From NCBI GenBank assembly GCA_902514865.1, contig CABXSI010000003.1, forward strand, positions 1 to 42,099: 42,099 bases of DNA, written 5' to 3'. The position numbers and the translations under genes are program-made. The stretch comes from an uncultured SAR116 cluster alpha proteobacterium (GTDB lineage: Bacteria; Pseudomonadota; Alphaproteobacteria; Puniceispirillales; Marisalimonadaceae). Numbering within the stretch: the stretch's first letter is position 1; every line of letters begins with the position of its first letter. Under the pieces are notes generated by a model, which had not been told where the DNA came from, did no database searches, and saw nothing but the letters and a program-made list of their open reading frames with translations. This document shows positions 22,408 to 25,165 of this stretch, piece after piece.

Positions 22408-23433
22408 ATGAACGATGTACTGAGTAAATTCTTTAAACATGAGTATTCTAGCACACCAATTTGGTTTTTAAGACAAGCAGGTAGACACATTCCAGAGTAC
22501 TTTGAAATACGCAACAAAGCGGATAATTTTATAGACTTCTGTTTAAACACAAAATTGATTGTTGAAAGCACAAAGCTACCGTTAAAATATTACGATTTAG
22601 ACGCTGCAATTGTGTTTTCAGATATATTGATGATCCCATGGGCAATGAACAGAAAAGTAGATTTTATTAAGGGTGTTGGTCCAAAATTACAACCTATGGT
22701 TCCTGATGAAACAAAAATTTTGAAAAATATGAATATTTTTCAGAAGCTTGAACCTTTAGAAATGTCAATATCTATCTTAAGAAATGAATTACCTCAATCT
22801 ACAAGTTTAATAGGTTTTGCTGGTGCACCATGGACACTAGCTTGTTATATGATTGAAGGTCAGAGTAGTAAAGATTTTATAAATACCAGAAAAGCTCTAT
22901 GGAATTCAAATAAATGGTTTATGGAATTAATTGATACATTATCTATTTATGTTGCAGAAAAACTTGAAATGCAAGCCAACGCAGGTGCAGATGTTTTAAT
23001 GTTATTTGACTCTTGGTCTCATATGATACCTAATAATTTTTTTAAGGAGTGTGCTATTAATCCCACTGCTAAAATTATTAGTATTTTAAAATCGAAAAAC
23101 ATCACAAAACCAATAATTGGTTTTCCTTTTAAGGCAGGTTCGTCTCTAGTAGATTATTCGTATGAAAGCAATGTTGATTGTATAGCATTGGATTGGACTG
23201 TAAATTTAAATTGGATAAATAAAAATTTAAACCCTTCAGTAGCTATCCAGGGAAACCTCGATCCAGCTTCACTTATTCCATTTAATAGTTATCATTTAGA
23301 TAATATTGTTCTTTCTATTTTAAACGTTATGAAAGATAATAGATTTATCTTTAGTGTTGGTCATGGATTAACTCCGGATTGTAAAATTAAAAATGTCAGA
23401 AAAGTTATTGATATTGTTAGAAACTATAAATGA
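22408..23433 (+). CDS. hemE: Uroporphyrinogen decarboxylase
   Basis: TPIWFLRQAGRHIPEYFEIR, GFAGAPWTLACYMIEG, QGNLDPASL. Confidence 0.98.
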   Translation: MNDVLSKFFKHEYSSTPIWFLRQAGRHIPEYFEIRNKADNFIDFCLNTKLIVESTKLPLKYYDLDAAIVFSDILMIPWAMNRKVDFIKGVGPKLQPMVPDETKILKNMNIFQKLEPLEMSISILRNELPQSTSLIGFAGAPWTLACYMIEGQSSKDFINTRKALWNSNKWFMELIDTLSIYVAEKLEMQANAGADVLMLFDSWSHMIPNNFFKECAINPTAKIISILKSKNITKPIIGFPFKAGSSLVDYSYESNVDCIALDWTVNLNWINKNLNPSVAIQGNLDPASLIPFNSYHLDNIVLSILNVMKDNRFIFSVGHGLTPDCKIKNVRKVIDIVRNYK

Positions 23434-23442
23434 AAAAAATAA

Positions 23443-23882
23443 TTGTATTATGATATAATAAAATCTATACACCTTGTGGCTGTTATATCTTGAATGGTTG
23501 GTTTGTTATATTTACCTAGGCTTTTCGTGTATCACAATGATAATGAATATTCTAGTCATATAGATATTACTTTTCTTTTAATGGAGTATCGTTTATTAAA
23601 ATATATAATGAAACCTGCTTTAATAGCCACTTACGCCTTTGGTTTTATTTTAATTTATGAAAATAATTATCTCTTACACGAAAATTATTTTTTACTGAAG
23701 TTATTATTAATTTTATTCTTACTCTGTTTCATATTTATTTATCTATTCTTTACAAAGACTTTAAAAAAGGCTATAAATGTAAAAGAACTAAGTTTTACAG
23801 AATAATTAACGAAATACCAACTATATTAATGATTGCAATTATTATACTAGTTATAGTTAGGCCTAATCTACAAAGTACTTAG
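23443..23882 (+). pseudogene. hemJ: Disrupted HemJ-type protoporphyrinogen oxidase (in-frame TGA plus apparent -1 frameshift)
   Basis: (TTG)YYDIIKSIHLVAVIS[TGA 23491-23493]MVGLLYLPRLFVYHN...LKKAINVKELSF, then after T-run 23793-23796 a different frame gives [28 protein letters not shown]; composite matches the HemJ pattern end to end. Confidence 0.8.
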
Positions 23883-23905: not shown

Positions 23906-25165
23906 ATGCACTTAAAAGAATTAAAAGCTAAAAATCCTTCTGATTTGTTAATCTATGCAGAAAGCCTAGACATTGAAAACGCTAGTACTTTAAGAAAACA
24001 AGATATGATGTTTGCTTGTCTAAAAAAGTTAGCGTCAAATGATATTGGAATTTATGGTGACGGTGTATTAGAGGTTTTATCTGATGGATTTGGTTTTTTA
24101 AGATCCCCAGAATCCAATTATTTAGCTGGTCCTGATGATATTTATATATCGCCCAGTCAAGTTAGAAAGTTTGGATTAAGAACTGGAGACACTGTAGAAG
24201 GCCAAATTAGAGCTCCAAAGGATGGAGAAAGATATTTTGCCTTATTGAAAGTTGAAACTATAAACTTTGAATCACCAGAAGCAGTGAGGCATCGGATTAA
24301 CTTTGACAATTTAACACCTCTTTATCCTCAACAAAAAATTAATTTCGAAACTGAGTTTGATCCCAACAATAAGGACATAACAACTAGAGTAGTTGAGATG
24401 GTTGCCCCGATGGGTAAAGGTCAACGTGGTCTCATTGTTGCGCCTCCCAGAACTGGAAAAACAATGATGCTTCAATCAGTAGCACAAGCAATATCAAAAA
24501 ATCATCCAGAAATTTATTTAATTGTACTATTAATCGATGAAAGACCAGAGGAAGTTACAGATATGCAAAGGTCAGTCAATGGTGAAGTTATAAGTTCTAC
24601 ATTTGACGAACCAGCATCAAGACATGTTCAAGTAACAGATATGGTAATTGAAAAAGCAAAAAGATTAGTTGAACATAAACGCGATGTAGTGATTTTATTA
24701 GACTCAATTACAAGACTTGCTAGGGCTTACAATACAGTGATCCCTTCAAGTGGTAAAGTCTTAACAGGAGGCGTGGACGCTAACGCTCTGCAAAGGCCTA
24801 AGCGTTTTTTTGGCGCTGCTAGAAACATTGAAGATGGAGGTTCTCTTACAATTATTGCGACGGCATTAGTAGAAACTGGTTCTAGAATGGATGAAGTGAT
24901 TTTTGAAGAATTTAAGGGAACTGGAAATAGTGAAGTTATTCTTGACAGAAAACTTTCTGACAAACGGACTTTTCCTGCAATTGATGTTACAAAATCTGGG
25001 ACTAGGAAAGAGGAGTTGCTTGTAGAAAAAGACACTTTGTCTAGAATGTGGGTGCTAAGAAGGATTTTAATGCAAATGGGGCCAGTGGAAGCAATGGATT
25101 TTTTATCAGATAAATTAAAGCAGAGCAAATCTAATGAAGATTTTTTTCGAGCAATGAATAAATAA
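23906..25165 (+). CDS. rho: Transcription termination factor Rho
   Basis: [56 protein letters not shown]. Confidence 0.99.

Follow-up and report, generated by a model that had tools for sequence, protein, structure and literature searches.

The hemJ locus and its two frame lesions

We examined a 42,099-nucleotide stretch of DNA (hereafter the window), which is contig 3 of the genome of a SAR116 (Puniceispirillales) bacterium (G000; 1.08 Mb, 92 contigs, 60.6% complete). The GC content of the window (30%) is similar to that of the low-GC SAR116 subclade described previously (PMC8547437), the best named match of its Rho protein comes from the SAR116 cluster MAG MED662 (93% amino acid identity), and a plasmid search returned no match. 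Between hemE and rho lies hemJ, the gene for HemJ (PgdH2; protoporphyrinogen IX oxidase, PPO), which oxidizes protoporphyrinogen IX in the step before ferrochelatase. The hemE-hemJ-rho neighborhood is common to the window and the relatives G022, G001 and G013, and its features in the window are as follows.

22408-23433, + strand: hemE, uroporphyrinogen decarboxylase, the intact upstream neighbor (TIGR01464, 324.7 bits, above cut-off), without lesion in comparison with three relatives
23443-23490, + strand: 5′ end of hemJ, a TTG start and codons 1-16 ahead of the premature stop, with the start frame as in the closest congeners
23491-23493, + strand: lesion 1, TGA replacing a conserved TGG (Trp17, W17)
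23494-23805, + strand: 103-aa open reading frame (ORF), HemJ residues 18 to about 89 and, past lesion 2, residues that are out of frame (TIGR00701, 67.9 bits, below cut-off)
23709-23882, + strand: C-terminal part of hemJ, read in the shifted frame up to the original TAG stop (23880-23882; TIGR00701, 53.7 bits)
23711-23714, + strand: lesion 2, a T-run one base shorter than in relatives that shifts the hemJ frame (DNA alignment and two PF03653 matches in two frames)
23906-25165, + strand: rho, transcription termination factor, the intact downstream neighbor (TIGR00767, 696 bits; 99% amino acid identity to relatives)

Translated from TTG 23443, hemJ reads LYYDIIKSIHLVAVIS, then the stop TGA, then MVGLLYLPRLFVYH. 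A Trp occupies the position of this stop in every intact congeneric HemJ protein aligned (26/26), and also in the HemJ copies from other genera that we compared. An earlier, sequence-only reading had recognized hemJ here with a TGA in place of the expected Trp, and both points hold: the identification agrees with the sequence, with the PF03653 and TIGR00701 matches and with the position between hemE and rho. It had further held that TGA serves as a regular stop codon throughout the window and that a recoded genetic code is unlikely. The 46 conserved ORFs of the window, which use 104 TGG codons, end in TAA (n = 28), TAG (n = 9) or TGA (n = 9), and no tRNA with a UCA anticodon was found in the scanned parts of the genome, which makes a recoded genetic code or a suppressor tRNA very unlikely.

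The second lesion was seen in a DNA alignment of hemJ (G034, on the wrong strand, was left out), in which the T-run at 23711-23714 has four Ts in G000 and five in G013, a 1-nt deletion. PF03653 gives two matches in different frames, one at 23446-23784 that spans the TGA and one at 23670-23864, and past the deletion the conserved C-terminus (FYRIINEIPTILM) continues in the frame of 23445 to the TAG whose last base, 23882, closes the true hemJ stop; the C-terminal third of the gene thus lies in another frame than its earlier part. Against TIGR00701 (the NCBIfam model of HemJ) the two halves match separately and each falls short of the curated cut-off (138.05 bits), which the intact G022 copy exceeds (146.1 bits), and the G000 gene gives no full-length, single-frame match above it. 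Compared with intact orthologs, hemJ therefore carries two disabling lesions, the TGA at Trp17 and the 1-nt deletion, about 220 nt apart within one 440-bp gene. Its sequence, its position and, lesions aside, every invariant residue except one are those of a HemJ, but its frame is broken twice and no full-length product is encoded.

The sequence-only reading had offered pseudogenization, stop readthrough and assembly error as its options, a fair list that overlooked the downstream frameshift. Since lesion 2 puts the C-terminus in another frame, readthrough of the TGA alone cannot restore HemJ, and simple stop readthrough falls away as an explanation. Translation from TTG 23443 would stop after 16 residues, and readthrough or initiation at 23494 would still give the wrong C-terminus, from which we infer that no functional HemJ would be made. 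The frame from 23494 is open for 103 aa, yet we give next to no credence to its encoding a functional, shortened HemJ. Owing to the two lesions, both ends of the protein encoded by this ORF are wrong: it is without the first helix and its conserved His, as had been anticipated, and the frameshift puts other residues in place of the conserved FYRIINEIPT region at the C-terminus. Its score is about half of the 138-bit TIGR00701 cut-off, and dN against G022 is 0.26 in the ORF frame, compared with 0.077 for hemJ read in its two true frames.

Constraint on hemJ and accuracy of the assembly

We found that hemJ of G000 has a dN/dS of about 0.12 against G022, close to that of the intact genes of the window and indicative of ordinary purifying selection. 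Besides the lesions, alignment with the 26 intact congeners revealed three private residues, one of which falls at a site that is invariant in the others. When neutral decay was simulated in a simple way, one nonsense mutation plus one frameshift were accompanied by a median of 8-19 missense changes; the probability of three or fewer was 3-19%, according to the indel rate assumed. So few private residues under such constraint mean either that the loss of hemJ is very recent or that one or both lesions are errors, and the conservation of the remaining gene is the main weakness of reading it as a pseudogene.

Frame lesions were then surveyed across the assembly. Along the 42 kb of synteny with G022, G001 and G013, no gene except hemJ has a broken frame; the remaining rows flagged in this comparison reflect starts extended upstream and cross-matches between HisA and HisF. 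A wider comparison covered part of G000 through 341 G022 orthologs (about 106,000 aligned residues, about 318 kb). Here, only two other clear genes were frameshifted, with one lesion each, and hemJ alone has two; two short, doubtful ORFs were also flagged, and the reverse comparison flags a similar number of broken genes in G022.

The two other frameshifted genes, and one further irregularity, lie elsewhere in the G000 assembly. In a dctM-like gene (TRAP-transporter large permease; L250:7538-8852, G000:C33), one extra A in an A-run breaks the frame. A 98-aa gene (L051:4568-4875, G000:C2) is frameshifted by an apparent short tandem duplication around TTATCCCTTATATA. At L170:1591-3370 (G000:C6), three adjacent G022 genes align only partly, possibly through a rearrangement or a chimeric join in the G000 assembly.

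The main rival to pseudogenization is that one or both lesions are consensus errors, arising from a low-coverage patch, amplification or a homopolymer, and that the organism's own hemJ is intact. We regard this as unlikely, though by no means negligible. The strong constraint and few private changes in the remaining gene fit it well, as does the intact hemJ of 27 of 36 congeners. The locus is also AT-rich (the middle part of hemJ lies in the lowest 4-10% of the window) and may be a locally poor patch, the hemJ frameshift sits in a homopolymer, the dctM frameshift is a second 1-nt homopolymer event in the same assembly, and the genome is 60.6% complete, all of which count against pseudogenization. 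Weighing against error, frame lesions are infrequent in this assembly and elsewhere occur singly, and by our own estimate scattered errors would place two lesions in any one gene about 3% of the time; two in a 440-bp gene are therefore poorly explained by scattered errors. Two error events, or one poor patch, would be needed to produce both a substitution and a deletion at a distance of 220 nt, and the gene that was struck is one that relatives have repeatedly lost.

Loss of hemJ among relatives

The sequence-only reading had called for comparison with related genomes. Close relatives mostly retain an intact hemJ, yet several other lineages have lost the gene independently. The nine congeners without a hemJ match (G010, G016, G018, G019, G020, G024, G028, G032 and G033) were considered as further losses and set aside: hemE is missing from them too, and in the four for which rho could be located the contig starts within hemJ, at rho or within rho, so that incomplete assembly explains all nine. 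Contig ends near hemJ or rho were likewise dismissed as a special signal, as about two are expected by chance by our own estimate.

The genome G007 holds a hemJ remnant (L163:7576-8001, G007:C7) that is a clear, independent pseudogene. Like the G000 copy it lies between intact hemE and rho, has a TGA at the same codon and keeps a recognizable C-terminal part; unlike that copy, to which it has about 59% nucleotide identity, it is much more decayed, with its start lost and several indels. The TGG of Trp17 can become a stop by a single G-to-A change, and the TGA shared by the two genomes may be a coincidence. The same TGA, together with the conservation of all other HemJ positions, could also speak for programmed recoding, in which the TGA would be decoded as Trp and a -1 shift at the T-run would bring the C-terminus back into frame, giving a functional HemJ. 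We consider this very improbable: two separate recoding events would be required, TGA is an ordinary stop in the window and the UCA-anticodon tRNA was not found in the parts scanned, no canonical -1 slippery heptamer was seen at the frameshift on inspection, 26 congeners use TGG and an unbroken frame, and the G007 copy is plainly decayed.

An order-wide search (136 genomes) extended the comparison. In G069, hemJ lies in two frames and contains one TGA and two TAA codons (G069:C12:2047-2471; search match only), and G072 retains no more than a 30-residue piece, which contains a TAG (G072:C1:131686-131775; search match only). In G041 and G050 (L133 and L134), about 160 nt separate hemE from rho and hemJ is absent from the interval, whereas two members of their genus, G038 and G044, have kept hemJ at this position. 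The hemJ matches in two other families (f2 and f4) are all full-length except for two partial ones (G108 and G118). In G081, a hemJ match contains a stop that may be merely the terminal one (G081:C3:41235-41657; search match only).

From these sequences, loss of hemJ appears to be recurrent in low-GC SAR116 lineages, which raises the prior that the lesions in G000 are real, and independent losses in other lineages favor a real loss over an isolated consensus error. We therefore think it probable that hemJ of G000 was recently pseudogenized within a recurrent loss of HemJ. In this low-GC SAR116 bacterium a TGG-to-TGA change at Trp17 and the loss of one T from the short T-run downstream would have inactivated the gene very recently; both lesions would exist in the cell, and presumably no functional enzyme is made. 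Other low-GC SAR116 lineages with hemE, hemF and hemH have lost HemJ independently, through decay or deletion.

Heme synthesis where HemJ is broken or missing

The genes hemE, hemF and hemH are present in G000, G007, G041 and G050. These genomes are 61-88% complete, and a PPO in the unassembled part is possible for each of them. HemJ, HemG and HemY have a mosaic distribution in bacteria (PMC4500134), and a survey found heme-synthesis genes in genera of both SAR116 subclades (PMC8547437). A search for hemG, hemY or another hemJ, also called for by the sequence-only reading, found none (for hemY, none above cut-off) in the roughly 60% of the G000 genome that is assembled. HemG (Flavodoxin_5) was not found in the 17 genomes searched, a set that excludes G041 and G050; HemY had no match above cut-off in any genome searched, and no second hemJ was found in G000 or in the relatives where it was sought. 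A likeness may be drawn to Prochlorococcus MIT9215 and MIT9515, which use only HemG (PMC4500134): there too a marine group whose other members use HemJ has single lineages without it, but the SAR116 lineages examined show no HemG (G041 and G050 lying outside that search) and no HemY above cut-off.

A divergent ferrochelatase was observed in G007 (L162:9780-10898) and G024 (L164:8791-9927), with about 35% identity to that of G000 and 96% identity between the two. It adjoins a 5-aminolevulinate-synthase-like gene and is possibly a replacement by transfer. The ferrochelatase of G041 and G050 is of the ordinary type, so replacement of HemH and loss of HemJ are not strictly linked.

If hemJ is inactive in G000, the step would presumably be supplied in another way: by a PPO outside the assembled sequence, by an unrecognized PPO, by slow aerobic self-oxidation of protoporphyrinogen, or by uptake. 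On its own, a broken gene in a draft genome would be unremarkable. The interest of this one is that the only known PPO found in these bacteria has apparently been lost independently in several SAR116 lineages, while the heme enzymes of the flanking steps are kept. Should the losses be real, the pathway would be completed by an unknown enzyme, by a known one that is unassembled, or by uncatalyzed oxidation, and the sets of genomes with and without hemJ make these alternatives testable. A bolder and rather doubtful proposal is that HemJ, the only recognizable PPO of low-GC SAR116 bacteria, is being lost from them while HemE, HemF and HemH are kept, because a still-unrecognized protein or uncatalyzed oxidation in sunlit, oxic water now performs the step. 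If that were true, the window would hold the newest of several independent losses of HemJ, pointing to a fourth kind of PPO.
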